Below, piece by piece: positions 5,160 through 63,300 of a stretch of 64,000 nucleotides of DNA. The notes below the pieces were generated by a model. The model made no database searches. It was given only the letters and a program-made list of their open reading frames with translations, and was not told where the DNA came from. A program made the translations under genes and the position numbers. The stretch is from contig NC_092637.1 of assembly GCF_039555335.1 (NCBI RefSeq), positions 38,094,526-38,158,525 of the forward strand, in the 5' to 3' direction. Each line of letters starts with the position of its first letter. Within the stretch, counting starts at the first letter, position 1. Source of the stretch: Amphiura filiformis (Eukaryota; Echinodermata; Ophiuroidea; Amphilepidida; Amphiuridae).

Positions 5160-5494
5160 ACTTTCTGGTAAAACCAGGGATCGTGCATGGTCCCTGGTAA
5201 AACATACCAGTACAAAAAGTTTTACTTGAGTTTTACTTTCTGGTAAAACCAGGGACCGTGTATGGTCCCTGGTAAAACATACCAGTACAAATAGTTTGAC
5301 AATAAGTTTTTATTCAATATCAGAGGATGCTTACATGCATTCCCATAACCCAAGGGTTCTGGCCTTTGTATGTCTGCCTTTTGTACACATGTGGCACAGT
5401 TGACCTGCATCCAGACGTACCTGCCTGTGCGGGGACTTGAACCCCGAACCTCTCTCTTGCGGGGCGAGCGCTCTAACCATTGAGCTACACAGAC
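5160..5494 (-). mobile_element. tRNA-derived SINE in duplication copy 1
   Basis: On the minus strand a 73-nt tRNA-like head (5494-5422) runs into an unrelated body to about 5160. The head folds as a tRNA: acceptor arms GTCTGTG / CACAGGC all pair, D stem GCTC/GAGC, T stem CGGGG/CCCCG around TTCAAGT. The anticodon loop CCCGCAA would give CGC (Ala) but has C at position 33 instead of U, and the anticodon stem has a mismatch, so it is not a normal functional tRNA. The tail holds a doubled block around CCAGGGACC. The same element lies in copy 2, and a head fragment with the same flank lies at 43515-43565. Confidence 0.75.
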
Positions 5495-5741
5495 TGTTCC
5501 TGATAAACATGATTCAAGTCTAGTACATGTGAATATGAGCAGTCAGGGTAAACAGAACAAACAACACAAATTACATACCAGTGTACGAGATCAATTAATG
5601 ATGTTTACCCGCCAGTCTAATATAATCATATAAACAAGGAAAATGGCTTGGGCATCATGCAGTAGAACATAGAAACATTCACAAACATTTCAAACTAGCG
5701 CACGAGATTAACTTAATAATGCTTAATCGTTATTCTTAATA

Positions 5742-9500: not shown

Positions 9501-12500
9501 TGTATAATGTTGATAAGCATTCTGCCATGTAATATAAACCACACACTTTCCTTTATTAAACCCATTTTTTGTTCAAAAGTCATTCTCTAGCAATGAATGT
9601 GTTACAAGTGGACTTTTATACATACTGGATTTCAATCAATGTGTTACAAGACTCAAATCATGGAATTGGGTGATTCTTTCATACATGCTATTTTTCACAT
9701 GCCCAATAGACACAGAGAATGAATTTGAGTTGTTCTTTCATGCATATGACAGGCCTATGTATAGCAACAATTTCCCATGCTTAACTCAATTTGGCCAAAG
9801 TATGGACTTATGTGCTCCCAGGTGCCGAAAATTCTGTGCAAAGTAAATAAACAGAATATTTACTTTGTGCAGATAAACAAATATAATAGAAATAATTTGA
9901 CACCCAATATCAAGACCTGAGTGCAAGAAGACCGTAAGTCCACTTTGCCCCTCAACATGTATACACTAAGTTCCGTATAGTTTCTTAGGGCGAATTTCTC
10001 GATAGGAGTCTTAGTAAGCCTTAGGCTTAAGGATGCCTTGAGGTTACTAAGCCTAGCCCGCTCTCGAAGCCCGAGTCTTAACTGTAGCCGGATTTTATGA
10101 TGTTTAATACATGTCCAGGGTGAAACATCATGAAAGGTTGTGAAAGATTTGTTTTGGCCCCTGAACATGTATATAACATTACCAAACTATACGAAACTAT
10201 ACGCAACTTTAGTGTATACGTGTTGAGGGGCTAAGTAGACTTACGGTCTTCTTGCGCTTAGGTCTTCATCCTACTATAATTCACCAGAATCTGTTTGTTT
10301 GTGTGTTTGTGTATCTGTTTGTCTGTCCGCCTCTTTTCTCGGAGACTGGGGGTCGCACCTTCCTCAAACTTGGTGGGTGGGTGCAGCTTGGTATGAGGAA
10401 GAACAAGTTTATATTTTTTAAGGTCAAAGGTCAAGGCCGGGGTCAAGTTCAATTGAAGTCTAATTTCAAACACTTTAAATGGCAAATCTAGCCATGCCAA
10501 TGTGTTGACCTTGGACTCTCAAACAAAAGTTTCCACGGTGACCTTTTCGTCAGACCTACGGTTACGAGGTCAAAGGTCAAGAAAGGTAAACATTTCAAAT
10601 TGCCCCTATAGAGCTCAAACTTGGTGGGTGGGTGGACCTTGGACAAACAAATAAAAGTTTCCACGGTGACCTTTTCGTCAGACCTACGGTTAAGAGGTCA
10701 TAGGTCAAAAAGGTAACAATTTCAAATTGCCCCTATGAAGCTCAAACTTGGTGGGTGGGTGGACCTTGGACTAACAAACAAAAGTTTCCACGGTGACCTT
10801 TTTTGTCAGACCTACGGTGAAGAGGTCATAGGTCAAAAAGGTAAAAATTTCAAATTGCCCCTATGAAGCTCAAACTTCGTGGGTGGGTGTACCTTGCACT
10901 AACAAATAAAAGTTTCTACGGTGACCTTTTCGTCAGACCTACGGTTAAGAGGTCATAGGTCAAGAAAGGTACAAACTTCAAATTGCCCCTATAGAGCTCA
11001 AACTTGGTGGGTGGGTGGACCTTGGACTAACAAACAAAAGTTTCCAATGTGACCTTTTTGTCAGACCTACGGTGAAGAGGTCATAGGTCAAAAAGGTAAA
11101 AATTTCAAATTGCTCATGAAACTTGGTGGGTCGGTGTAACTTTGGCCAAGGAAGCTCAGATTTGAGAGCGAAAGTCAGGTCAAATTGCAAAAGCTGCAAT
11201 TGACCTCATCTGTGAGGACAGTGATCCCAGCCAAAGGACACACCCTGATTTTGAGATCTGCAAAAGCCAATAACCATGACAGCCGAGAACCGCGAAATAC
11301 GGGTAACCGCCTAGTATGTAATAATTTGCCACAACGAAGTGAAATTAGTGAGACTACTAATCTGCTATTCAGCAACATGCATAAAGAACAAAATATTAAA
11401 TATTTGTGTAAAAGGGAAAAAGGGAAGCATATTGCAAACAACAGATTCGCCAGATTTTCCTAACATTTTGTATTCAATAAATTAAACATAATTCAGCTTT
11501 AAAGTAATGAATACAATTGAATAATCCATCACTTTTTACGCGAATTATGACAAATGAAACGGGTAAATAACTTTTTAGACAATCTCTCTATCTTTGTTTT
11601 CTCTCTTTTTTTAATTTGCAGGAGTTTGAACAGAAGTGGGATGTCAAAAGTGTAGTACCAGATGTATTAGGTATGTTACTAGTAATTCTAATATATAAAC
11701 AATAGAGGCATAATAAAGGAGCAACTTAGCTAATAAAAACCACTGAAACATCTCCCCCTCTCTCTCTCTCTCTCTCTCTCTCCCCCTCTCTCTCTCTCGC
11801 TCCCTCTAACGAGCGCGATAAACATTTCATGACATTCGCCGAGCTAAAAAGTGAGTCGGCATTTTCCCCATAGCGTTACGGTCTTTTCTGAGAAGAGCGT
11901 TTTTGCGACAAAATATGACAAAGGCATATTTTGCACAAAATTGAAAAGAGAGTGACAGAATGGCCTTAGAGAGTATCATTTTTGTTTAAAAAACATAATT
12001 CGAAAATTTTTATCACTCCTGTGGTTTGCTCTCGCTGAAAATATAATAGGGTGTACCTTCTTAGGAGTTATGCACGTATATTCAACGTATTCAACCCTAA
12101 AAAATGTCCGAATTTGATTGTACTGATAATCAAAGAAAAACTCATTTCAAAGCTTCTTTTTTATTCTATCTGATAGAAAATCTTATTCTAAGGTTATCTA
12201 CCGACTTTTAGTAAAATTTATTGCAAAATATTGAATTTAGAGCGATTTTCTGGAAGATTTGATTTTGCTTCAATTTGGCCGTGGGAACGACATTATATGA
12301 CGTTTCCGGGGTTTCAAATTCAATATTTTTACATTCAAACTTTTCTAACCATGCCCTTATTTTTTTTACAGGATATTAGGCACTTTATTGAGATAATAAT
12401 GAAACTTTCGCCGAAATTTTTAATTTGGAAGGGGTCCAATTAATTTTTTTATGTGTTGAATTTACTCAAATTGCGTTTTGTAATGTCAAAAAGCGCTCTC

Positions 12501-22739: not shown

Positions 22740-23551
22740 GTGAGGCCGTCGTAGGTCCTACGGGGCTCAAACTCGGTGGGTGGGTGTAGTTCTGTCCTGG
22801 CAAGAAGACGTTTATGTTCGTTAAGTCATCCGATTCTGGGGCCCCCTCCCAGGGGTCATTTGAGGGCAAATGACTAAAAACTGTCATATGAGCATGAAAG
22901 TAGGTCCTACGGTGCTCAAACTCGGTGGGTGGTGTGGGTGTAGTTCTGTCCTGGCAAGAAGAAGTTTATGTTCGTTAAGTCATCCGACCCCGGGGCCCCC
23001 TCCCAGGGGTCATTTGAGGTCAAGTGTCTAAAAACTGTCATATGGGTATGAAACTAGGTCGTACGGGGCTCAAACTCGGTGGGTGGGTGTGGTTCTGTCC
23101 TGGCAAGAAGATTTTTATGTTCGTTAAGTCATCTGACCCCTCCCAGGGGTCATCTGAGGTCAAATTACTAAAAAGTGTCGTATGGGCATGAAACTTTGTA
23201 GGTACAGTCAACATTTAAAGCAACATTTTTGAAGGTCATTTTGGGGTTATCCAAGGTCACCACGGGTCATCTGAGGTCAAATTAGTAAAAACTCATATAT
23301 GGGCATGAAACTTGGTGGGTACAGTCAACATTTAGAGTTATAAGTTTAAGTCATTTTGGGGTCATCCAAGGTCACTCAGGGGTCATCTGAGGTCAAATTA
23401 CTAAGAACTGTCTTATGGGCATGACAGTCGACATTTAGAGTCAAATCTTTGGAAGGTCATTTTGGGGTCGCCAGGGGTCATCTGAGGTCAAATTAGTAAA
23501 AAACTGTCATATGGGCATGCCGAGAACCGCCAAATATGGGTAACCGCCTAG
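22740..23551 (+). mobile_element. Helitron-like element with tandem repeats
   Basis: The right end GAGAACCGCCAAATATGGGT followed by AACCGCCTAG, then T, matches the 3' end of the Helitron at 10269-11314. The inside holds tandem units of about 140 bp with GGGCTCAAACTCGGTGGGTG and TGGCAAGAAGA blocks. The left end is uncertain; I could not place the TC start. Confidence 0.7.
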
Positions 23552-26551: not shown

Positions 26552-29500
26552 TCTGTTTAAAAAGGGAAACATACGACACGTTATTCTAAAAGCTTTAGAT
26601 GAACAACATTTACGTGAAAAAGAAGAAGAAGAAGAAGAAGTCCTCATAAAAGAAGGTCAATATGGAAGGAAAAAATGCCAGGCATGTTTAGTGTTAAAGG
26701 TGACACTGTACTCTTTATTTTGATATAGGATTTTCCTATTACTTCCAAAATTTCAATGACACTATTATCTTTGTGATTGCGATTGTATGAAAGTATGCAC
26801 AATCACAGGTTTTTGCCTCTTTCCCAAAAAATTGCCATAAGTTCTGCCCTAAACGTATTATTTGCATCTTTTTTGATCCAAGTTCCCATTTATCTCAGTT
26901 GTCATTATTTGACATGATTGATATCACGTAAACTTACCATTCATTACACGGCGGTTCGCTTCCAGTTGCGGCTACTGCAATGAAAAGAAATGGGGACAAA
27001 GAATCCTACCATGACTATTCATACTTTGACATGCATCAGTTTTCACGACATAGGCAATCGACATGGATCCGAAGTGAATCCATGAAGAAGTGTCCCTTAA
27101 CAAGGAATTTGCACTGTAAATCACACGCTTAACAGGGATTACTAAAAAAAATGTAACAATCATAATAACCAATTTTACTAATATCCGCGAAGCCAATTAT
27201 AGCCAATCAAGGTATACACTGTAAATCCGTACCTGTAACACCTTTTGAACACATTTAAGGCGTTTTGCCAAATAGTTATTATTTATTATCTAGATCACAG
27301 AGAGTCTACATGTACCTTCTCAGAAAAAAAAAAAAGTGGTTTCACCTATTATAATACACATCGCAAGTCCAAAATAAAATCCAAACCGTCTCTTTGGTTT
27401 ACAAGTTATCACACTTTGAATTTGTATCTAAACGCATCCTAAACACTCAGTGACGGTGTTAATTTTATTTTGGACTTGTGATGTGTAGGAAAATAGGTTT
27501 CAAAATATGAAACCTTTTTTCTTGAAAGGTACATGACGATAATAATAACAAAAAACACCTAACGTGTTTAAAAAGTGTACAGCTAGGGATTTATAGTGTA
27601 CCGTAAAACCCCGTCTACAAGCATATATAGTGTTTTTTTTATAAAAGCTTAATTAATTCGAAGCAAGCGTTAATATACCAATACAATTGATCGGTCTTAA
27701 AATAATACTCGTTTGTATATGCTTGGATCCGTAATTTATTTGCTCAAACTCCATAATGGCGACTGGATAAATGTAGCTTTCATCAGAAGCACACTATATG
27801 CTTGTAGACGGGGTTTTACGGTATCTAAACATTTTGCCTTTGGAACTCGGAATATCTCTCGGGACTGCGCCCCTCGGGATATTCCTCGGTTCCAAAGGCA
27901 AAATGTTTAGATTTTTCACAATGCCCTCTAAATAACCGATGCGCAGTTATTAACCTCTAACTATATTTTGTAAAACAGATGGAAATAATACATGTGACAC
28001 GATCTGGTCCATGGGGGCCAAAGGCGGCAAATTTGAAACTGAGATAAATGTCAAAATATGGAGTAAAAAAACAATAAAATACATAAGAAAATAGACATCA
28101 AAAAACTTCATAACTTTTGAACCAAGTATGCTAGACCTTTGGTGTTTTCAGTAAATGATAGCCTATTGTATGTATAATGTAATAATTACAGTAACTCAAT
28201 TTTCAAAAATGCCTCCTTTGGCCCCCATGAATCAAATCGTTTCTTACCGCATTTTCCACACATAACTGGACATTTTCTTCTTATAATGGCATAATACGGA
28301 CATTCTTCTTGAAAATAGTCATAGTCTTCACAATATTCATGCTCTTCATCTATGCATTGATCTGCAAAAGAAGTGATTCTTATCAATTATTGACAAACAT
28401 TTGAAATTATATACCTCATATATAGATTTCTGTCATCTGATTGGTTGAAAGTGCAGTCATTGAATTAACTATGCCCGCAAAATGAACTATGGTCCGGTCC
28501 ATGGAAATGAACTATGGACCGGTCACGTACGTGCGTCACGATCAAACTGCGCGTTTTTCCCAGCGTAAAATGATATTACGCACGCGTTAATGTTTTCACG
28601 CGCTATAATCACGCAGAAATCGCAGATTGTAATCTGTGTGCCGTTCGCATTGAAACTATTAATTTCTCTTGCCAAAATCGATGCTTTTAACCAAACAGAT
28701 GACAAGAATCTTAAGATTTGGTATATAAAACAAATATTGACTGCTTTTTATTCGGGGCATGTACGCCTCGGGGCATAGTCATGGTTTTGAGATCACCTTG
28801 GGCCTATAATTTTAACCATGCCCCTCATAGTAGTCAATTCACCAATTCACCAGCTATGGGACTGCAACCCAGTGAGCAGCTACCACCTGGAGCTGATTCC
28901 ACATGGCCTGAGTGGCGGTGTCTCAACAGACTAAGATCAGGGGTCGGAAGGTGCAAGGTCGCTTTGCAGAAATGGGGCTACCTACCAGAAGGGCAAAACA
29001 CTAACTGTGAGTGTGGAACGGTTCCACAGACTATGAAACACCTGTTGATGTGTCCACAGATGGGGCAACACTGCACACATGAGGACCTAGCTGAATTCAA
29101 CGATTCTGCTCGTCACTGCGTCAGCTATTGGCTCGGGCGCATTTGACCCTGCGCTTGGACACGCTAAGAAGAAGATAGTAGTCAATATTTTGTATACTAT
29201 GACATTCTTTATATAATGCTCTTAGTTTGAGTTTACTAGAAAGCTCCCAGCTAACACAAAAAACGTTTTTAAAAAACTTTTTAAACAGGTTATATTTTAG
29301 ATTGTTGGTTTTGCTAAAAACGTATTAATAATTTTTAAAATGTCTGGTCATAAAAACGTTTTAAAACGTTATGTATGAAAACACACTACAAAACTATTTT
29401 TAAAATGTTTTAAAAATGTTATTGTAAATTATATTTTGTGCAAACACTTTTTGCCAATATTTTGTCAACACTTAAATAACATTCTATTAGAATATTTGCA

Positions 29501-32500
29501 GGAGGTTATCAAAAATGTTTTTAAATGTTATGAAAACGTTTTATACCCTTCATATGCCCTTTATATAACCCAACATTTAAACTTGTTTTATTTCTTTGAC
29601 AACCTTTTCTAACCTTTGGCGAATGATATCGAAAACGTTTTGTGTTTGCTGGGCCTATCCTGTTTTATCTTTCGTCATAAATATGAATCATGAATATTGC
29701 AAGAATTATTGTTGGGCCTAAATCATAATGTGGCAAAATTGAGGTACTGTCAACACATACTTAACTTCTGGAGCACTAAATTATAGTGCTCTGAAACTCG
29801 GATCTGTCGCACAATGTCCCTGCAGTACAAACTATTTTGCACACACCGTGAGACTTTCATAATAAATGTTTTTAACACCATAGAATGTATCTTCTAGACA
29901 TTTTTTTTTAATTGGCGTAGCTGTTCGGCCTTCTCTTGGCACCACGAAAGCAGAAAAGTCATGCCCTGGTACCGATGGGTTTGAACAGGTTGTGCGACGT
30001 CAACTAGTGTGATCTCACCTGATCTGGTTAGTCTCTAGCCGTTTCCAAGAAAACGTCAGAGCTAGCTATATCGGCGACGAGGGAGTTCCTCGAAACCTCT
30101 CCCGGTAAGCGAAATAAACAAGTAGTGTTGCAGTTACTTTCGCTAAACTTAGCACCAATTCATACGAGCCCGGGAGCCCAATCTATATCCATGACATCCC
30201 GAGTATACTCCAATTAGCAATTTCAATCTTTATGATATAAAAACTTGATTAAGGTTGGTCTTAACCATGGAATTATGGAAACTTACGGGCCTCATAACTG
30301 CTAAATTGTTGGTGTAAAGTATATAAAAGTATATATATTTAGAACGGCAAAGACTTATGAATTTAAGATGAATTTATCAAGTCTTTGCCATTCTAAAACT
30401 TTTATATACTTTAGACCAACAATTAAGCTGTTATGAGGCCCAAAAGTGTCCATAAATTCAGGGTTAAGACCAACCTTAAATTGAACCATTTAAGTTCTCT
30501 ATAAGCAGTCTGGTCCGACTGCCTGATCAGGAAATACTGTTGAGTCAGGCAGCATGTTGCCTGCACAGGCAACACAGGCTTTGGTAACCCTTCCGAATTT
30601 GACAGACTAAGGACTAAATTGTTCATGGTGATTTTATAAAAGATCGATGGAAATTTTACTTTGACACACATGAGCTACATGTAAGTTGACAATTTTTCAC
30701 TGGGCGAAAAAAAATTCCACCAGGAGGAAAATAATTAAAATAACAAAACAATGTCTAACGGTTTAAAAAAAAATTGATTTAAATATGCAAATTACCTTTA
30801 TTTTAGCTAAAATTTATGAAAAAATACTACTGATTGTACATCCAGTGATAATTTTATGTATTTTCCCTACTTCTTTACTCTAAATCAAGAAATAATGGTA
30901 TATTAAAAGATGCTCTATTTGAAATAGAGCATTGCATTGTGGGATACTATGTTGCCTGCGCAGGCAACATGCTGCCTGATTCGGCAGTATTTCCTGATCA
31001 GGCAGTCGGACCGGACTGATAAGCATGATTAAGCATAATAAGCCTACTTACCCTCACAATATGTCCCAAACCATCCTTTCTGACAAGAACATGTGCAGTC
31101 ATTCTCAGTCGGTGTGCCACAATGGTGACACTTAATGGAACAATCTGAGAAGAAGCAGTATCAGGAAAGCGTGGTGAAGTTGGCTCGAGATTAGAGATTA
31201 GAAATTAGACATTCGCAATTGAATAATTCAAAACGTTAAATATAAAGTTTTTGAAATTCCTTTATTTTGATGAATTTCGACCTAAAAATAACTCTTATGT
31301 ATAGTTCAAGTCTTCTATTGTTTTTTTGACACTATTTTTGGACATCCGAAAATTTTGGCCAAACTATTCAAAAGTTTGGATCTTCGTTATCGGGCCAAAA
31401 TTCGACCTAAAAACAACTCTTTTGTATAGTTTAAGTCTTCTTAAGTCTTTTGACACCATTTTTGGGCATTTAAAAAATTTGAAATTTTTGGGCCAAAATT
31501 TTTGAAAGGCCAAAAACGGTCTCAAATGACTCCATACCCTTGATCGATACGTGTGTTTGACTGGTTGTATAAAAGTTCTTTTAACCAAAGAATATTTTAA
31601 TTCACCAAATCATTGCAAGTTCTAACAGATAGAGTTTGACTAAAACGTTTTAAATCCCGTAAAAAAACCCAAATTGACATAGATTTAGAGTTCGTCGCAG
31701 GGCCGTCGCTAGACCATTTTCTCAAGGGGCAGTTGTGTCCTAAAATCGTGTCAAATGAAGATGCATAGGCCTTTTACAACTTTTGGTTAATTTAGTCCCG
31801 GTATTTTGATTCAGCTTACGAGGTTTGATGATGCTTTTCCAGGCATCAGAGAAACTGTTCTAGCACTCATACATGTATTTGTGATTTACATATAAAAAGG
31901 GTGGAATTATAACTCTCATTTTTGAGATTTTTGTTCAAATTTGAGGTGAAAAAGGTAAACTCAAAGGTGACGTCTCGCAAATCTACTCACAGAATGGCTT
32001 TAAAGAGAAATGCGCACGGCGGCAATTTGGCATTTTAATACTCACTGTGAGGAAAACATGTGCACTCAAGCAGCCAAATTTTGATTTGGGGGGGCAAATA
32101 GGGAGCATACTATCAGATTGACATTGGTGTAGACGAGCAAATTCCTCCCTCTCTCTTTCCTTTTCTCCATCTCTCTCTTCCTTTCTCTTACTTTTTCCTT
32201 TAGGGGTCACCAGGAGGTGTCGCACCCCTCACACCCACATAACCCCCATGGCGACGACCTTCGTCGGACAAGTATAAAACTGTCACGCTTTCGTCAGTAT
32301 TATTGTGGGCTGTCCCGTGACCAATAATATTAGCGGATCGCCTTTAATTACTTAAGAAATTGCTGCTCACAAAAGAGCCGTGGTATTTCAAAATGCTATA
32401 GTTGTCCGACGCCGAACCCGTTGAAACCCTTAATAGTATATAAAAAAAAGGCGACCAAAAACTCAACGGGAAAACGTCCGACTATTAAAGCGAGTACATT

Positions 32501-35500
32501 TCAATACATTTTTTTTTGGAATCATATCAAAGGTGTTAATTTATTTAAAATACAAATTTAATACATTCTTACCGCATGTGATGCCGTCTTGTTTACAATT
32601 TCCTGAAATGTTCACAAAGTAAAATAAATGTCTTTATTTGCTATACACCGTTCAATATCAAAAAAAACATTGGTGCTATCTGACAATGTTAGGAAGAAAG
32701 TTTTCCTTCGGTTGGCTCTATTACAGAATTACGATTGTAATGTACTATAATTAACTAAAAGACCCTACGAAATTAAAAAGGGCACAATGTCTGAGAGTGA
32801 TTACTAAATTTATTATCAAGCAATATTATAGCATTTTCTAAAAAGGAAGTCCTTGATTTTATTTAATAATTCATCTTTCTACACCAATGCTTTAATGGAC
32901 TGATAACTTGCAATAACTATAAACTTTAGGTACTGTATTTTGTGAAAAAATCTATGATTTTTAATAAAATCTCGGATCAGAATCCGATTGAAATTTTAGT
33001 CGAATTTGCGTATGGTTGAAATTTCTCGTAGGGCATGCGCAAGTATCTACGGGGAATCGACGGACTAATATATAAATAACTTTTGCTGCGACGACAAAAC
33101 GTTATAAATACATGTATAAACCCAAATGATATCGAGAGTGACCGATTTATGTCAACTGAATTTTATTGAAATATACTTACTGCATTTGTTTTCAAAGCAC
33201 CAACTCGCTTCAGGCCCACATCCTTCACAGCTTGGTCCCTTCGTGTATGGTCTTCCCCCGTAATTGCCCCTAAATGTTGGAACCAATTTGACGTCATTCA
33301 CTTTCAATGAAAACTAAATTACATTATTATTTGTGATATTTCAGTTCCCCTTATTATTTATTTATTTATTTACTTCTCTGTGGTAGTACACACCATACTC
33401 ACACATCCCTCCTTACACAAAAACGCACACCCCCATCCCCTTGCGGGAATTCCAACAATTATGTTGGTCATATCACACTTATACATTGTGGTGAATATGA
33501 GTTTTGAACATATCAATAACCTCGCCCTCGGCGATATCGGGCTTCTACTAAAAGGGTCATTTCTGCATGTTCCATGTCTTCCCCACATGCCAGGAATGGC
33601 GACACCGGGGTGACAGGGGTTGCACCAACCACCCAAAAAATTAGCCCGACCGATCCTACTTGAAAGGCCCCTCCACCCGTAGAACAACCTTTTTCTTCGT
33701 GAATTATCAGTACGACGCATTCTTCACACAACGCAAATAATCGCACAATTTAAGTGTAACGGGCGCATAGCGGAATAATCTGGAGGTACACTAGTTTGCC
33801 CCCTATAAGCGACTCTATGTGATGTGTCTTTGGCTCTAATCTCTTTGAGCCATATACAGTGCACAAAATAATTAAGGTACCAGTTATGTTCACCCCTTTA
33901 TATTCTAACAAACACAAATATTTCAAATTTAATACATGTATACTCGTTAGCTCTGATTTAATAATAATAATGGCCCATTCCATGTCAACTCCAGGGATGT
34001 GCACCGCAGCACCTCTTCAATGTTTTTCTTTTTCTGTGTGGTGGTAGATATTGATGAGAAAGTAAAATCCTGAAAAGTTGAGCTTCATACTCCATTTCGT
34101 TTTCCCGTGGCATCAATTTGAAATTTAGGGGGGTCAGCGTAAAAAATGTGTCGCAACGCGAAAGACGATGTTTGGAGGTCCATAAATGTATAAAGGGAAC
34201 CCTTTAAAACTTTGAAAATTATGTATCCTGGGGTACTTTTTGGTGTAGAATTCAAATCTGCTATCAAGAAACTTGTAACTCCTTTACTTTAAATAATGAT
34301 ATAGGGCCCTCACAACTCTATGGAAAACCTAACTAATGTGTTGAAGCTATCAAGACCCCAAGCCAACATCTCTCAGAAATGTTGTCCAAGAACATATCTT
34401 CAACATACCTGAAATTGATGGTGGGGTCAAATTGTCTGACATTAATTTTCAGGGGGTCAAATGTAAAAAAGTTTTTGCCAGTAAGATCCCTTTGGTGTAT
34501 TCTAATATACTCAATATTGAATAAGAGTAATTTACCTGAGGGCTTGACTGGCAAAAAAATGGAAGTAAAATTTTTTTACTTTTGAGTTTGACCCCCTGAA
34601 AGTTGGTCCTGGTGTCGAAGTTGCATTTTGAGGGCCCTATATCTTTTAAAGTAAGGTATGTTTCCTGATACCAGATTTGATTTCTTGGACCAAAATTACC
34701 CCAGGATACATACTTTTCAAAGTTTTAAAGGTTTCAACACATACATTTATGGATTCCAACATCGTCTTTCGCGTTGTACACATTTTTACGCTGACCCCTA
34801 AATTTCAAATTGATGCCATGGAGAAAAACGAAATGGAGTATGAAGCTCAATTTTTCAGGATTTTACTTTCTCATCATCAATATCTACCACCACACAGAAA
34901 AAGAAAAAAATTGAAGAGGTGCTGCGGTGCACATCCCTGAGTTGACATGGAATGGGCCTAATAATAATATTTATTTCTTACATACAAAATTTAGAATATG
35001 TTAAAAACACCAAAACTGTACCTCAAATTGAACATTGTTTAATCATGTTTGTTAGATCTTTTAAATGATTTTTATGCATTTCTTGTATGTAATTGTTTGT
35101 TTTTGCTTCGTTTTCCCTGCATTGGTCCATGCTGTTGTTTTGCACTGGCATGTTGGCCATGTCCTGGGTTTTGTGTGTGCTTTTTAACCTTGTTTGTTAA
35201 TAAAGTAATATGATGATTAATTACACAAATATATTTCAACTACACCAGGCACAAAAAGAAACTCGTCAGTTATATTTACACTTGCTGTTCAATAACTTGA
35301 TAATTTTGGATTATTCTGAAATATACATTTTGTTAATTGGACTTTTCTGTCTCATTTGACGCCCTGTTCGTGAACATTGAGCAAGAATTGACCAAGATTT
35401 GCGCCTCCAAACTCTCAAACCCCAAAATGAAAAGTTGCAATTTTAACGATTCAATTGTGCCTGTTACACTGTGTGCTCTATTGATTGGCCCGTAATACAA

Positions 35501-44402: not shown

Positions 44403-45789
44403 GATTTGGGTTCTCGGTGCAAGCGGGTGTAACGATGTCAACGTGGTTCTAATAGAGAATGATGAGGCTTATAGACGGTGGAGTGGATATATAGATAACA
44501 TGTAGCGTATATCTCTTTTTTCTTCGTTGTAATTATTGTGCAGCTGGTTGTTTATTATTATTCAAACGCTAATGGAATTTTAATCCATCCCAGAATTTTT
44601 GAATAAAATTGTTTCTGTTTTGATCTGGTTGCGCACATGAAACGGATATCTTAGACTGGATCTATTTAATCTTTTGTAATAAAATTTGTATGCAACATTG
44701 CCGAATGTTTCAATTTGCAGATATCTTATATGCACCTTTGCGTCACTAAAGTTGCGGAATTTACATAAATCTCATCCCATTTTGAGTCTTTTACATTATA
44801 CTGCACGAATTTTATGAAATAATTGTAGTCACCTGTGTGTATTTTATGCAACTTTGCAGTGTTTGTATGCGTAGTACACTTTCATCGAGCTGCAGCTAGG
44901 TTAAAAAAGGATGATTCAATTAAATGAATTGATATTTTCAACCTACCCTTTGAAATAAATGCAATCAACATTTTCTTTTCTGTTTAATATTTTACAGAGA
45001 TTATAATCTTATGAATTTATAGGCGCCTGTGTGCATTTTATGCAGCGTTGCACAGTTCTGATGCATATTTGCATTAACATTATAATTCCGTTAAACTTGA
45101 CATCATCGAGCTGCAACTAGAAACTAGGTTAAAAAATAGCAACAAAAATCGAGTTATTATGCACTTTCAAAGTATGTATTCTGTGTAGCTATTTAGTTAT
45201 GGCAGAAAAAAGTCACATTACAAAATAAATGGTGGTCTAACGAGCCGTTTAGTTTAAGATGTTTATTACATGCAATAATAGTGAGACAAATAGCAATAAG
45301 TTGTGCTGGAGATTATGTTACAACAACATTTGGAAAAGTGATATTAAATGTATTATTAAATTTTTGAAAGTTAATATATATTATATACTAGTATTGATAT
45401 GTTCTGCATAATGTTCTAATAGTGTTCTACACTTGTTGGGTTAGAACTTACCGGTGTTCACTCTTCTTTCTGGATATTTTCAGAAAGTGTTCCCAAAATA
45501 GCCATCATAGGTCAACGTGTTCTGGATGTGTTCTAGTGACCTGATAATAACCCGGACTTGGAACACATCTAGAACACATTCTAAAACTTAGGGGCTGTGC
45601 AATAAAAAAAATATTTGCCCCCCCCCCCCATCCCCCTGTGTCATATGTTTGTAACGTTCTTGACAGATGACATTCTAACTTGAGTCAACTTTAGAAACAA
45701 AATAATAAGTTTTTTGTAAAACATACCAGTAAAAGTAATAGTCATCTATATGTAAATGCCATTCTAACTGAATTAGTCAAATATAAAAA

Positions 45790-46118
45790 CAAGGCACTTT
45801 CTGGTAAAACCAGGGATCGTGTATGGTCCCTGGTAAAACATACCAGTACAAAAAGTTTTACTTGAGTTTTACTTTTTGGTAAAACCAGGGACCGTGTATG
45901 GTCCCTGGTAAAACATACCAGTACAAAAAGTTTGACAATAAGTTTTTTATTCAATATCAGAGGATGCTTACATACATTCCCATAACCCAGGGTATGCCTG
46001 CCTTTTGTACACATGTGGCACAGTTGACCTGCATCCAGACGTACCTGCCTGTGCGGGGACTTGAACCCCGAACCTCTTTCTTGCGGGGCGAGCGCTCTAA
46101 CCATTGAGCTACACAGAC
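45790..46118 (-). mobile_element. tRNA-derived SINE in duplication copy 2
   Basis: The 73-nt tRNA-like head (46118-46046) and body match the element at 5494-5160, with a few differences (for example GAAAG for GAGAG in the anticodon stem). The doubled CCAGGGACC tail is present. Confidence 0.75.
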
Positions 46119-46799
46119 TGTTCCTGATAAACATGATTCAAGTCTAGTACATGTGAATATGAGCAGTCAGGGTAAACAGAACAAACAACACAAATTACAT
46201 ACCAGTGTACGAGATCAATTAATGATGTTTACCCGGCAGCCTAAAATAATCATATAAACAAGGATAATGGCTTACGCATCATGCACTGGAACATAGAAAC
46301 ATTCAAACATTTCAAACTAGCGCACGAGATTAACTTAATAATGCTTAATCGTTATTCTTAATAATATCAATATACAGGGGAAAGAAGAATTACGTTAAGA
46401 TATTTAATCCCTGTCTTTAGTTCTTCTTCTGTTCCGTGGTATATGATGAGACAGCCACCAAAATATCTCCAATAGTGGAAAATGTTATTAGTTGCATTAA
46501 GGGTAGACGAGCTTTTTTTTTTTGCCCCCCCCCTCACCACCAAGAAAGCTGGCTACGCCCCTGTTATAGGGTCACCACTTTGGGGTTAGTTGCCAGCTTA
46601 TACGCAAAACTAAAATAAGCATTACATTTTTCATTTATAGATCCTATCTGTGATATCCAGTTCATGCACAACTAGGTCATGTCGAAAATGATTTTAAAAA
46701 CATGGAATGGATTATAATTCCATTAACTTTCTGAATTATAAACCACCACCTGCACAATAATTACAACGAAGAAAAGAGAGAAATGTACAATTTGCTGTC

Positions 46800-53900: not shown

Positions 53901-56900
53901 TAAACTTACAATACAATAGCAATTTGAATGAACACGGTTATAGTTTATAATATTTTCATATTTAGTGACTGCAAAAAATAAGCACTGTCCAGATGTCTTT
54001 CTTTTAAAATGACTTATTAAATCAGAACACTGTGAAAGTGTCAAATGAACACCAAACAGAGGCAAATTAGCAGTTAACACCAATGAGTGTAAACATTAAA
54101 AATATTAAGTTAACTCCAGCAGAAATCACTGTATTATCAACACCCGTGGGTGTGGGCCTCCTGGAGCACTTTCTTGGTGTTTGACACCACGGAGTTTTTA
54201 GAATGTAGCTGTCCCAATAAAGTTCACCATGGATAAAAAATCGTTTATCTTCGTTTTAAATTATCTAGTATTGGGATGACAATGAGGCTAATGCGGCTGA
54301 ACAATGGGCTGCAGCTTGTACAAAGGGACACGATCGAGGCGGCCAAAATCTATATGGTGCCGGTGGCAGTTTACAGTTACCTCAGGCTGGTGTTGATGCG
54401 ACCAATAGTTGGTATGATGAATACAAGAACTATAATTACGACGCAAATAGTTGCTCGGGCGTTTGTGGTCATTACACCCAAGTAAGTCAATAATACTATA
54501 GTTCTAGTACGTAAAATGATATTTTATTATTATTTATTGTTATTCACGGTTTATTCAAACACACTAAAAAAAACACATCTAAAAGCTAATTTACTGTGCA
54601 GCCCACAGATATAAAAAATACAACCAAAAGTGCTTCAATTACAGAGAAGAGGAAGTGTTCCTCTCTATCGTTAAATAGGAAGAAACATAGCCCGCTAAAT
54701 CGTTAAAAGTTAGGCGGGTAACGCAAAGGGGAAGCTATTGTTTCTCCCTATAGTCAATTTCCCCTCATAGCCTTGTTTTTAAAGGTCAAGGAGTCGAACC
54801 TGCATTTTTTACATGACGGAGTGCCCATCTTTCTTTCGTTAACGATTAGGGCAAACGTCACCGTGAAATGTTGTGGGGCATCGCCCAGCATTTAAGAATG
54901 GCCGTACCCATTTGTGCAACTGGGTGGAGAGGAGTAATCGAGATAAAGTGCCTTACTCAAGGGCACAGCACGATGACGTCGCCGGAGCTCGAACCCACGA
55001 CCTTTCCATTATGCAAAAAAAAAATAGTTTCGACTCATGTCCCCCGCGCGCATTAGATTTATGTTGCACGTTTTCACGGGTAAAATAATAGAGGGCTGTA
55101 ATTTATATATTTTAAACCACCAGCGCTAAACTGAATATATTACACAAGTTTATGCATATTGTACTTAAATATATTTGAATAATTTACTTTTTTACTTTTT
55201 GTGTCCCTTAAAAGTAAGCCTACTTAATTGAATAATTAGGCACACTTGATTAAAACATTGGACGAGTCCTCTACCTATGTCCACCCCAACCAAAAAAAAA
55301 AAAAAACGCTCAACGGTCTATGCAAATTAACTACTAGACAAGATCCCCGGGATACTACCTGTCCAGGAGAGCTTCGCAGGAAATCGGCGGTACTCATTAC
55401 AAGTCAAGAGGCTGGGAATGCAAAGCTTTACTGTGACTTGCCCATAATGGGGAGTACCAATGGACAATGCGTTACTGGGTTCGCTTTGCTTTTGCTTTTA
55501 TTTGAAGATGGTTGGTGCTTTTAGCTGCTATGGCTATGTGCACCACCAGCTGTACAATTCTCTTGTGAACAATACCTTTGTTTTCACACAAAACCATGAG
55601 CACTTATATGCTTCACTGCACCTTGGTTATGCTATGCTGTTCGTGTTTCCAGACGAATGCGTGTGCGTTAATTCCTCTCGGATGCTTGTGCGTTAATTTC
55701 ATTTATCTTTCCTTGAACTCAATTCAAAAACCAAACGGTGTCTTCTCAGAGCCACACCAGGCCGAATCAGCAGAAGAAGTGGCTAGACCGTGAACAAAAC
55801 TATACATTGTCTCCGACTACGCTGAAATCTTCGCTTCCACACCTGTTCCCCATTGCCCAAGTTAGCGTTACCCATCCGACACCACGTGGAGGTTTGGGTT
55901 GCCCGCGAGCAATTACTATGTCAGCTCTGCGTGCCTTGCCGGACTACTGGGTTCTTCAAATGTCTGCTTATATACATTTGACTAAGTAATAAATGTCATG
56001 ATATTAGAACAGATCGTAGTCCAAACGATGACAACTATGTGTAATTTGCATTATTCATGAAACATTTTAATAACAATAGTCACCCGGTGAATACACTCCA
56101 GCGAGATTAATGCAAGCGAATTAACTTCCAAACCCTTCAAATACAGATTGAGATCAATTCTGTGTTGATTTGATTAAATGACTTGTATTTGTCACTAGAC
56201 TCGAACACAGGACACATGGGAAGAGTATTATACTGTTTCGAGGTGGGTCTATTTTGGGGGAAACCCTCATTTGAATTTGGATTTGGAAGATACCTTCTCT
56301 TAAATAACAGTATTGCGAACCACCAGCATACATAACTCGATGTAGAGAGTCTTTCCTATTCAGAGGAAATATTGCAATTACACACCTTATTGCCTTTTAA
56401 CAATAACCATTGACACTAGCACATATCAAAGAAGATGTAAGAAAAGGATGGAGAACAGAATTATATCCTTGAGATAATCCCGTAGGTAATCCTGTTGCAC
56501 CTATCATAGTCCTTTATTCTCAAGTGGTGGGTTAACCAACAGTTAACAATGAGAGGAAATTCCTGAACCTAGTTCAGTTGGGGATGATTTGAAGTGACCG
56601 CCAATTATGACCATTTGATATTTAATACCAGCAATGTGAAAAAAAAAAAGAAATAATGTAGTGCCAAAATAATGTACCCTTTTACGGAAGGAGCAAAGTT
56701 TAACAAGTTATAACTCCGCTTCTGAAGTACAAATGACAGCGGCGAATGTCAGGTTATTATAAAAAAGTCTTGAAAAAAAATTGCAGGCAGAGGTGGGAAT
56801 CGATCTCGGTACCTCCCGGTTAAACAGCACTGTGCAAGACCACTAGACCAACTAAATATCTGTTGTGAGATGTGACATTAATCTTTGATATTGCTTAATG

Positions 56901-57242
56901 GAACAAATCAGTAATAAAAGAAATAGATTCTTATATAGCGGTCAAATTAGATAAAAGGGGAAATATTTGTCCCTGCTCGAAAGAAAATATAGGTTAGAAA
57001 ATTATCAAATAAATTTAAATTACAAATTGAGATTTTATATTTCTTTCTTTCACGCGGCGACATTATCACAGACAAACACTGTATAAGCTAAAAACTCGAC
57101 TCTCATCACTAGATGCTGTCATTTAGCTCAATGGTAGAGCATCAGACTGCTGATATCAATATGGTTGGTTCGAGTCCTCCTGCCAGCAATGGTTATATTT
57201 ATGATTTTAATGCTACGCTAAAATTTGTTCAATTTTTTTCGT

Positions 57243-57301
<59 letters not shown>

Positions 57302-60300
57302 TTTTTGTTTATTTATGTAAATAATTTGATATATTTGAAAGAGGTATTTGAGCAATTTTATAATCCTATGGGGTCATTTTGAACCCATACCCTCCCAACT
57401 TGCCAAACGCACAACACCTATGAGTTTGCATCATACATGTCATCATTAGTCACGATTATGCACTTTCAGTTTCCCACGCGTTTGAACGGGAATTGGATTG
57501 CGTACTTTTCGATGTCTAGTGAGCAAATTTGTTCATTATTTTGAGAAAATGATGTCAAATTTTCTATTCTATATTGTTTGGTAATAATGTCTTTTGCCAA
57601 TAGTATGTTTAAAGTTGTAATTTTGTGTTTTTGATCGCAAAGATCGGATATTTTCGTTCCCGATTCGAATTCTGAACCCTTCGCAAGGGTGCCGATTTCG
57701 GCAGAACTTTGACGATAATTTTGCCTTTTTGGACACTTAAATGCTTTCGATCCTTAATTTTGTTTCAACCGAGTCTTAAATTATCAAGCACAATACAGTT
57801 GGTACCACATTTATATACATTGATGAAATTTTAAAGATTTTTTTCAAGTTTCTAACCGGCGCAAATCGTTAAGTGTGTATTTCCCATTGACATCCAAAAT
57901 GGCGTAAGCCAGTCCTCAATATACATAGGTACGGCGTATATAGGACTGGCAAGCGAGTCTATGTCATCATCATAAAAATTTAAAATTCAGGTCCCACAAA
58001 AATACAGTAATTGTGCAAAAGAGGACATAAATAATTTCTTTCTGCAACCATAATGGGCCGCAATATATCACTAACCGCATAGTCCGAGGCAAGGTTCATT
58101 ATTGTCAGGGTTAGGGTCTTAAGGTTAGGGTCTTATGGTTAGGGTTAGGGGTTAGGGGTTAGGGTTAGGGGTTAGGGGTTAGGGTTAGGGTTAGGGTTAG
58201 GGTTAGGGTTAGGGGGTTAGGGTTAGGGTTAGGGTTAGGGTAAGGGTTAGGGTTAGGGTTAGGGTTAGGGATTAGGGTTAGGGTTAGGGTTAGGATTATA
58301 TTCGTATTTATTATACTAGTAATAGTATATTGTGTGTATGCAGTTTATTCCGTAATCAATAAGTATCATAAACAAACACCTTTCTGGCACAACAAATCAT
58401 AGCACAGTCGTGTAGGCATTAGACTATGGATACAAAGGTTGTGGGTTCGAACCCCAGGTAAACCGTTATAGAATTTTAATTCTATCGATTTCTTTTTATT
58501 GTATTAAGTAAGAGGAAATAATAATGGTAATAAACTCGTGTTATATCTAGCCTCATAGGCCTATTAATTACATGTATGTACTATGTGTTATCGCATTGTG
58601 GCCCATTATGGTTGCAGAAAGAAATAACGCATGCCGGCAACTAGACTACTATACAAAAAAATAGTATCAAATCTTTCCTGCTCAATCAATATAATACTTG
58701 CAAATAGATCATAGTTTACTAATCTAATCCTGTAATATAGACCTGTTATATCACCTGTATTTGCATGTAGAGTCTATACATGGTTTGTTATGGTAGGGAT
58801 TAGTGTCCGATCTCTGTAATGTAATGTAAATGAAGCATATTGATATGCAGGAAGAATCGATCAGGGCGCTATCTATTAGGGAAAGATAAACACTATTCAA
58901 AATATCAATAGACAAGAAGAAAGGGATGTAGAGATTTGTAATTGAGTCATGCATGATTTAACAGAAGGTTCTTTCCAATTCCCAAACGTAATGTCAGGTT
59001 TTACCAGATAATACAGCAGCGTTTCCATTTTGTCTGTTGGAAAATGAATGAACCAGTACAATAAACTCATTTATTTTGACGTATATGCAAGGGGGTGACA
59101 CTAAATTCCCGGTTGTTCTATAAGCAACGCAAACATTATAACAAATCCTGTTGGTTTGCTAGCTATCGATCCGTTATGATCCGTTATGAAAATTCATATT
59201 CGACCCCATTGATCAAGTTGGCGAATAACGACGCCGTTAGTTTTAAGAACTTTATCTATTCAATGAGAGTACAGCGCGCCCCCGATATACATCAGGGCAC
59301 AAACCACTCGAAAACGATTCGGTTTATGAAATGGCGGACGGGTATTTCCCATCAGGCACCAGTGATATGAAAAAAATTCTACTAAGTTAATTTGGAAATG
59401 ACTTTTGCAATTCTGTCGGTCTATCTCTAGTCTCGGGCCCAAACTGCATGTGGCCCACGGTTTGTTATGAACAACAGAAACCGACTGTGAAGGAGGCTAC
59501 ATAGCGATGTTGTTGGAGTGACGTTCAATTTCGGAAAAAACGACACTCGACCATGGAATTTAATTTTAAGTTTGTCAGTATATAAACGGTAAATCAAGTA
59601 AGTTTCTTGCACTCTGAAGATTTAGAAACGGTTGTTTGATTCCACTGACCGAAATTTTGTGATCGAAATTTACATAACACCAATGACAGAAATCATCAAC
59701 AAAAATCGAATCAGGGACTTATTTTCACTCGAACATCATCAACCGGAAGTGACGTGACACGGACCGACAGAATAGTAATGTCGAAATTAGGACTTGCTGT
59801 CAATAATACGAAGGAAATGCGTGACAGGTGTAAGGTATGAAATACCCGTAGTATTAGTACAGAGTGAAACAAATTTTGGATATTTTCTTATATATATATA
59901 TTCACCCCTTTATGGTTTGATTTTAAACTGGATTCAGGTTCCGACCATGGGCCCGTTTTCTTTCTTATTATTCGGTAATCGTGACATGTTAGTGGCTGAA
60001 GGCTCGACTTACGGGGTCTCGCCTTCCGAGCGACTAACATGCTCACCATACCTCAACAAGACACAGATTATCTTTGGCAATGGTCTGTTTCTCACCCGTT
60101 ATCTACTAAGTAACCTGTTCAGCGATTCTTCCCGTAGTGATCGCTCCCGGGAAAACTCAAATAGCAATAATAATTCTGACATCATCAATTTATTTGGGGT
60201 GGGGGTTAAAAATCAGTGAGGAGGATGGGTTATATACACTATAACCATGATAACAAACATTTATGCAAATAAGAAATACTATTGGCATATTACGTATTCT

Positions 60301-63300
60301 ATATAAATAAAAACTAATCTGATTCTTTTATAAAGGTTGTGTGGGCAAAGTCAACCCGTGTTGGATGTGGTGTAGCGTTATGCCCTACATATGAGGGTAA
60401 TGCCAGTGGGTGGGTCTTGATTTGTAATTATTCACCAATGTAAGTATACATTAAATTAGGCCTAGAGACTTCGCCATGTATGTTTGTGTGTCGCTCATAA
60501 AGGGCAAAATACCGGGGCAAAATAGTGTACCTTCAGATTATTTCGCCATGTGGCTGGTACACTTCGATTTAAAGTGTGTGATTGCTTGTGTTGTGTGAAA
60601 AATGCCTTGTACTGATTACTCCTGAAGACCTGTTCTATATACGGGTGGACGTGCCTTTCAAGTAGGGTCGGTCGGTCGGATTTTTGGGTGGCGTGCGCCA
60701 TCTCTGTCAACCCGGTTTTGCCATTTCATGATCTGAAATTTGTAGAAATGACTCTGTTAGAAGAGGCCCCAGATCCGGACATCAGAGCGGTGATGTCATT
60801 GAAATGTATAAAAATAGGCATACTCATATTCTACAAGGAATAAGGTTGGTGGAAATCACCAGTACCCGACAAAGACATGATCCTTAACCAATATTAATAA
60901 GATTCCTTAGACCTGAAACTTACAGAAATGACCCTTTTAGAAGAAGTCCCAGATCGGCCGGGCCCCAGCGGACGAGGTTATAGGAATGGGCAAAACTCAT
61001 ATTCCCCCATAAGGAAAAAGTATGTAAGTGTGATATGAACCTCATAAGGTATTGGTGGAAGTTCCACGAGATGACCCGTAAGAGCAATCTAGACCTTGTA
61101 TAAAATGAGGAGCGGCCTCTCATTAAAGGACCTCACATTAATACTGGTATTTCAACAACTCTTCCAATACCTTTGTACAGGAGCCAACCGTTGTTAATCC
61201 GTGATGAATCCACAGTTCAATAGCGTATACGCGAACGCAAGGTTACGCGTACGCGTTACGCATGAGCGCGTAAAATTCGTCATGTCTGGAACAAACTCTC
61301 TTCTGTTGGCGGTAGCAGCTAAATATTACCGCTTTATTCTTTAGTTTTAATGATATCAACAGAGAAATACTGCGATATTTTTGTAAGGTTGAGTGTTAAT
61401 GACAAACGGACATTCCGAATGATGTGAATTAGACATCTTTAGCTTGTTTCGTTGTTAATCAATCGGTGATGAACAACGGTGAAACATGATTGAATCCCTA
61501 AATTGTCAATGATTGAGGGGGGGGGTCACACGGGGGGATGTTTGAGGATGGGGTGGGCGAGTAGGGGTGTCTGTGTATGCCGTGGGTTGGTTTGGAAAGT
61601 GTGTGTGGTGTAGCGGTGTGTGTGGATGAATATGGTGTGTCGGTCGTTTGATGACATGTAAAAGTGAGTAATTTCTAAGAGAAGTTGAACAATGGTAGCG
61701 CTATTTATCTAAAATCTTGTTTGCATCTTTACAAGGGTGAAAAAACATCTATGTTAAACATTGCTACAAATATATGTGTATATACAGTTTATTAGTGTGA
61801 TAGCTGTTGGTATTATTCAGGTCTAGAATTGAATATTATAATACTGTTTTATTAGAAAAATTAGTAAATGATCATTGATCAACCGTGGTAAGTAAATAAC
61901 AATTTAAATTTCACAAAATATAACGGGAAATTGTTTCTAACTTTTAGGGGCAATCTAAACACAAAAACAACCAGACCATACGAGGAAGGACCCAGCTGTG
62001 CAGGGTGTAGATCTGGAGCGGGTTGGTGCTATGAAAACAAATGCAGTAAGTAGATGTCAATCAATTTTAATATCAGTGATGTTGCCTAAGGTTAAGGTTA
62101 CCTTACGACGTAAGGTGTTGTCGAAGAGAGGGGGGTTATGGGGCAGTTTGCTATGATGCTATGCGCTCAACTGTGTAGAGACAACTGTAACTTTGCTTCT
62201 AACACTGCCCCTCTTTTTTGTTAGTCTTTATCATCGCCTTCCAAGGAACGCATTTAACAAATCTAACTATGCCTATTGTGTACACAGTATACTGAACGTA
62301 TTTCAATTAAATAAAATTACATTGTATTTTCACTTACTTTGTGTACATTTCAGGAGATTGTAAAAAGACGGCATCACATGCGGTAAGAATGATAGAAATT
62401 GTGATTTTACATAAATTAACTACTTTTATAAAAAGAGAAATGTACACGCTTATGCTTTCACATTAGGGGATTAGGTAGCATATACACCAATTCACGAGAA
62501 GCGTTTACTGTACATGTATTTGGCCCTCTATTGACGGAACCACAGCTGTGTATTGTGTACAATTATTCTGTATAGAACACTAACAAGTAATTGATGCAAC
62601 CCCCGACTCTGGGACACCGCAGTTTTACGTCGGGGACACCGCAGTAATGGCCTAGTCGGAACGGGGCTATCGTGCGCCTTAGGAAATCAACTTCTAGATC
62701 AGAAAAATGCGTAGACAATGATAAGCTATGTTAACAAATTAAAAAAGATGAACCTCGAGGTCAACACGGGTCAAGTTTCATACAACAGGGTTCAAATTTC
62801 TAAATTGTTCAAATGTTGTCAAAACCACGCCAAAGTATTCTTATGGGTTTTTTGGGGGGTGGTCATGTTGTTTTGGCCACAGAATGGTCAAAAACCGAAA
62901 GTGATCCGATTTCAATGATAATGGTCATCTTTGTCATGTAAAATGAACTCAAATAGGAATATGAGCAGGTTTTTAAGTCAAGTCAACACATACATAAATG
63001 ACAGCCAGTGAAAAAATTTCACTGACTATCCAGTGAAATTTTTTCACTGGCTGTCATTTATGTATGTGTTGACTTGACTTAAAAACCTTGCTCATATTTA
63101 ATTTACCACATAGATTAAACTTTATTTCTCTGTCTCAAATAAGGAATAGTTCTCACCATCTAGGCTGTTTCGTAACATCATAAAATAGGTTGTGGTCAAT
63201 AGGCCCTGTAGGCAGAAATGGGGCTAATCTTTATTGATTTCAGCAATAACAAAACCTTTTAGATAGTGCAAACTATTCCTTATTCAACGTCATCGGCAAT

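Follow-up and report, generated by a model that had tools for sequence, protein, structure and literature searches.

An inverted-repeat element enclosing an interstitial telomeric array in Amphiura filiformis

A 64,000-nucleotide stretch of the Amphiura filiformis genome (Echinodermata; Ophiuroidea; NC_092637.1, positions 38,094,526 to 38,158,525), referred to below as the window, contains at 58035-58624 a unit of 590 bp that is bounded by terminal inverted repeats (TIRs) of 30 bp, has TAA on either side and encloses an array of TTAGGG repeats. A past insertion of this unit is well supported by its TIRs and the TAA duplication. We read it as a non-autonomous cut-and-paste TIR DNA transposon, that is, a miniature inverted-repeat transposable element (MITE), in which the telomeric array is carried between the ends and was pasted as cargo, and we put the probability of this reading at about 0.5. 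The structure is real and tidy and gives a promising lead, but a claim that telomere repeats spread by transposition needs more than a single copy. The features of the unit, several of which are discussed further below, are as follows.

58032..58034, no strand: left TAA target-site duplication, from the sequence
58035..58064, + strand: left TIR, 30 bp, 29 of its 30 bases pairing with 58595-58624
58065..58106, + strand: spacer of 42 bp from the left end to the array; its matches in the window are weak and short (best E 0.15)
58107..58297, + strand: interstitial telomeric array whose G-rich strand is the + strand; besides 25 exact TTAGGG it has variant units (an extra G, TCTTAAGG, TCTTATGG, TAAGGG)
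58400..58454, + strand: possible RNA polymerase III (Pol III) promoter, A-box-like TAGCACAGTCGT and B-box-like GGTTCGAACCC, by box-pattern match
58468..58497, + strand: 8-bp hairpin (58468-58485) and a run of five T (58493-58497) behind the B box, from the sequence
58595..58624, - strand: right TIR, 30 bp, pairing with 58035-58064
58625..58627, no strand: right TAA target-site duplication, from the sequence

The two ends pair with a single mismatch across 530 bp. Moving the boundary outward by one base gives a 31-base pair at 97%, and because this longer version loses every flank match of 2-8 bases, the 30-bp ends with TAA are the best boundary among those tried (flank matches of lengths 2-8 at offsets 0-4). 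The chance per site is 2.05% for any 3-bp flank match and 0.16% for one matching TAA or TTA, figures that understate the freedom in placing the ends. Exact 20-base inverted pairs at a spacing of 300-2000 bp occurred in none of ten dinucleotide shuffles, and the ends of 58035-58624 are therefore not due to chance. The real window has such pairs at 116 positions; this DNA is rich in repeats, and inverted pairs are thus a common feature of it, not one peculiar to this unit. Furthermore, when the 28 inverted pairs within 3 kb were reduced to 17 by setting aside 11 that were near-palindromes or parts of one and the same pair, four of the 17, including 58035-58624, had a flank match of at least 3 bases. 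The unit has no long open reading frame (ORF), its longest open stretch being 59 codons across the array, and a six-frame Pfam scan of 56001-60982 gave a single match, to Trypan_PARP over the array, at 17.8 bits against a cut-off of 100. The unit shows these traits of a MITE: TIRs, a target-site duplication (of 3 bp only) and a short length without transposase coding. The initial annotation had described a 590-bp unit with ends of about 30 bp and a TAA duplication, and this description holds to the exact coordinates.

The same annotation had counted about 30 TTAGGG units inside the element, which agrees with the 30.2 copies (87% matches, 9% indels) assigned by Tandem Repeats Finder over the 191 bp of the array. 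The array lies wholly within the element and has non-telomeric window DNA on both sides, as is expected of an interstitial telomeric sequence (ITS). Exact TTAGGG occurs 44 times on the + strand of the window, and 25 of these are in the array, which is also the only place in the 64 kb where at least two exact TTAGGG or CCCTAA stand in tandem. The repeat is imperfect. Its longest perfect run is six units, and alignment of 58107-58298 to a perfect array gives 177 matches and 4 substitutions, together with 11 insertions of a single base, of which six add a G. When the array is parsed into 29 units, excluding 58107-58110 and the final 3 bases, 19 are canonical and 10 are variant. Variants crowd the left end of the array (six among the first ten, with a hypergeometric probability of 0.047), a weak, post hoc observation that was not used.

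The TAA duplication also suggests where the element belongs. PIF/Harbinger transposons make a 3-bp TWA target duplication (TAA or TTA), and their autonomous elements encode a DDE transposase and a Myb/SANT-like protein. The TAA found here is of the TWA form, and the element is probably a PIF/Harbinger member. Under the cargo reading, a transposase of this type would have acted in trans on these ends, and the array would already have been inside the element before it was inserted at this site. The array may have entered an ancestral copy as filler, or through telomerase action during repair of an excision gap, and could have grown afterwards by slippage. Substitution levels are comparable between the array (4 in 192 bp) and the TIRs (1 of 30 pairs) and so do not require that the array be younger than the insertion. 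The opposite argument, that the array is older than the insertion because it is more divergent, was rejected: the substitutions are of the same order as those in the TIRs, and the excess consists of slippage-type insertions.

Further copies of the element were sought in several ways. No exact 20-mer of the end was found in viral contigs or in prokaryotic genome contigs. A 16-mer of the end occurs at four loci in viral contigs, all without an exact opposite end and all in one identical surrounding sequence, with no TTAGGG and with 1, 0, 0 and 2 CCCTAA. Given this common context and the missing opposite end, these loci were rejected as relatives and are taken to represent an unrelated stretch. 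Because the DNA collections scanned were viral and prokaryotic contigs and not animal genomes, these misses do not refute spread by transposition; the lack of relatives is an absence of data and no evidence for a single copy. Two peptides derived from the element returned no candidate from the protein database, where a non-coding element could be found only as chance ORFs, and the end sequences had no match in paper texts. Among the repeats of the window, no empty site was recognized, as the 1-kb flanks lack a good second copy there (best other match 58 bp, 70.7%, E 0.004). As an observation in its own right, two overlapping ORFs in different frames lie on the + strand at 825-1390, the second with a weak Myb/SANT-like match (PF13837; 1061-1387, E 0.00037, 21.3 bits against a cut-off of 27), with no element ends nearby. 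This locus may hold a Harbinger-type accessory gene in decay, or else a gene of the host.

Two histories fit a single copy, in that the array was either cargo at the insertion or was added later, and several observations weigh against the former. A search of the 64-kb window with the first 21 bases of the end, allowing up to three mismatches, returned only the two termini of the element, and from one copy the co-mobility of the array is unproven. No transposase was found by Pfam in 10 of the 34 window ORFs of at least 90 codons or in the 5 kb scanned in six frames. A duplication of 3 bp is the basis of the superfamily call, and the substitution comparison, with five changes in total, cannot date the array. 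In addition, the available passages of one study place 6 of 27 TERC-ITSs of primates and rodents within transposable elements, and its authors hold that transposons did not spread them (PMC8537989). This makes chance nesting of an array in a transposon plausible. Accordingly, a MITE of about 399 bp without the array may have been inserted first, with the array added later at this locus by telomerase-assisted double-strand-break repair, so that the repeat never transposed. We regard this as a serious possibility, somewhat short of even odds. Break repair is the published origin of mammalian short ITSs, as far as the passages available state (PMC7215372), and the 191 bp of the array falls within the 6-205 bp given for the loci of the TERC-ITS study in the portion available (PMC8537989). 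The other inverted-repeat pairs also mean that targets for such an addition are common in this window. Against it, the array is not clean, with 10 of 29 units variant where a single recent telomerase addition should be purer, although this point is weak, slippage being fast; also, no array-less copy was seen in the scans of the window and of the viral and prokaryotic contigs. The cargo history is placed above later addition as a matter of judgement and not from a computed ratio. The initial annotation had proposed that the element lets telomere repeats spread by transposition rather than by break repair. One past insertion, marked by the TIRs and TAA, agrees with this, whereas the scans of the window and of the viral and prokaryotic contigs found no further copy that has the array in another flanking context, and break repair inside an older element is a serious rival.

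The remaining explanations are less probable. The array could be the product of replication slippage at this locus, starting from a few GGGTTA-like units that the element already had, with no part played by a telomere or telomerase. This fits the variant blocks that stand repeated side by side in the array (TTAGGG-TTAGGGG-TTAGGGG occurs twice), but a unit-order permutation test for local duplication was not significant (820 of 10,000 shuffles reached the observed score), and the hexamer of the array is identical to the telomere repeat common in animals; such an origin is improbable. Less likely still is that the inverted ends arose by chance or belong to something other than a transposon, with the TAA a coincidence. 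While TAA on both sides is no great rarity when the boundary can be placed freely, and 4 of the 17 inverted pairs match at their flanks by 3 bases or more, pairing of 29 of 30 bases across 530 bp stands against ten shuffles that did not yield even a 20-base pair.

The cargo reading bears on the origin of ITSs, for which the usual explanations are chromosome fusion and break repair. If real, a MITE that holds TTAGGG and is present in many copies would supply a mechanism for a transposon-borne origin. We suggest tentatively, with a little less confidence than we have in the cargo reading, that this element belongs to a family of MITEs with a telomere seed as cargo, whose every transposition would leave a TTAGGG array at another internal position and so produce ITSs without break repair. 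If this were true, such a family would provide new sites for telomere-binding proteins, chromosome healing and recombination-based telomere repair. If the array is instead a later addition, the locus is an ordinary short ITS that has fallen into a transposon.

The pearl, Xmix, miDNA4 and (GTCY)n MITE families have many copies, whereas one copy is known at 58035-58624. Tourist-like MITEs of PIF/Harbinger, which we take to be marked by a 3-bp TAA target duplication and short TIRs, resemble the present element in both traits; they differ in that no transposase partner was found in the window ORFs and frames scanned. MITEs with internal tandem repeats are an established kind, represented in the available passages by the pearl family (CvA, DTC84) in bivalves, Xmix and miDNA4 in Xenopus and (GTCY)n MITEs in Lepidoptera (PMC9659126, PMC5139131, PMC6947457). 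Like the element described here, these are short and non-autonomous and hold or give rise to tandem repeats, but none of the repeats named in those passages is the telomere hexamer. Among the titles and abstract openings listed, which cover the literature in part, there is no description of a MITE with TTAGGG between its ends, and the available passages of PMC2944182 and PMC9498494 describe no TTAGGG-carrying MITE. Telomeric cargo in a MITE would be new, while MITEs with tandem repeats are already known.

Short ITSs formed by break repair, including TERC-ITSs, also resemble the array, an internally located and imperfect TTAGGG repeat of about 190 bp, and some of them lie inside transposons according to the passages available (PMC8537989, PMC7215372). 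Unlike these, the array here stands between both ends of one complete element with a target duplication. Transposition of mobile elements has been suggested as one way in which large ITS blocks could arise, but the available passage does not name an element whose own ends enclose the repeat (PMC6410037). The TALT regions of C. elegans, as described in the passages available, are internal DNA bordered by telomere-like repeats that can be used to rebuild chromosome ends (PMC4595603). They are similar in that internal DNA is associated with telomere-like repeats (PMC4595603); here, however, the repeat lies inside a transposon and is known from sequence alone. Since internal DNA of the TALT kind can rebuild chromosome ends, a mobile telomere seed would be of interest.

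To the right of the array, the element contains a stretch that the initial annotation had called tRNA-like. An A-box-like motif at 58400 and a B-box-like motif at 58444 lend weak support to this, judged against what we take to be the A-box/B-box consensus. This pattern matches the window once, where shuffles give an expectation of 0.00; it was picked after the site had been inspected, and it misses both tRNA-Ala genes that programs call in the window. No tRNA was called at this stretch by ARAGORN, or by Rfam at the gathering score or at E values up to 5 and 10, and its two predicted folds are no better than those of shuffled sequences, of which 128 of 200 and 77 of 200 fold equally well or better. 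Direct repeats of at least 8 bp are absent from 58295-58600, that is, the stretch has no target duplication of its own of that length. Without a tRNA call by either program and without such a duplication, a tRNA gene or a complete short interspersed nuclear element (SINE) is unsupported, and the stretch may be a remnant of a Pol III promoter or of a SINE head. The hairpin and T run at 58468-58497 may be a candidate end of a short Pol III transcript; the run of four T at 58474-58477, inside the hairpin, would terminate such a transcript earlier. Separately, a degenerate tRNA-like sequence lies outside the element at 57117-57186 (Rfam tRNA, 25.2 bits against a 29-bit cut-off), and a (TTTA)n run begins less than 60 bp after it (57242-57316); the two are perhaps a tRNA-derived SINE with its tail.

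Over the whole window, Tandem Repeats Finder gave 17 rows of tandem repeats, as expected of a repeat-rich animal genome, and tandem arrays at 10507-11113 and 22751-23424 have units of 128 bp, 154 bp and 117 bp. Two further inverted-repeat elements with possible target duplications lie at 30506-31018 (ATAAG) and 33972-34958 (TAATAAT). The two tRNA-Ala (CGC) genes are on the - strand at 5422-5494 and 46046-46118, and the ORFs that overlap them, at 5222-5542 and 45742-46137, share stretches of translation by eye; these ORFs and tRNA-Ala calls may represent one repeat family. Finally, a fragment on the + strand at 28715-29143 looks by eye like a reverse transcriptase; it has no Pfam match and has 25 relatives in the protein database, the closest by identity matching at 96% over 48% of the query.
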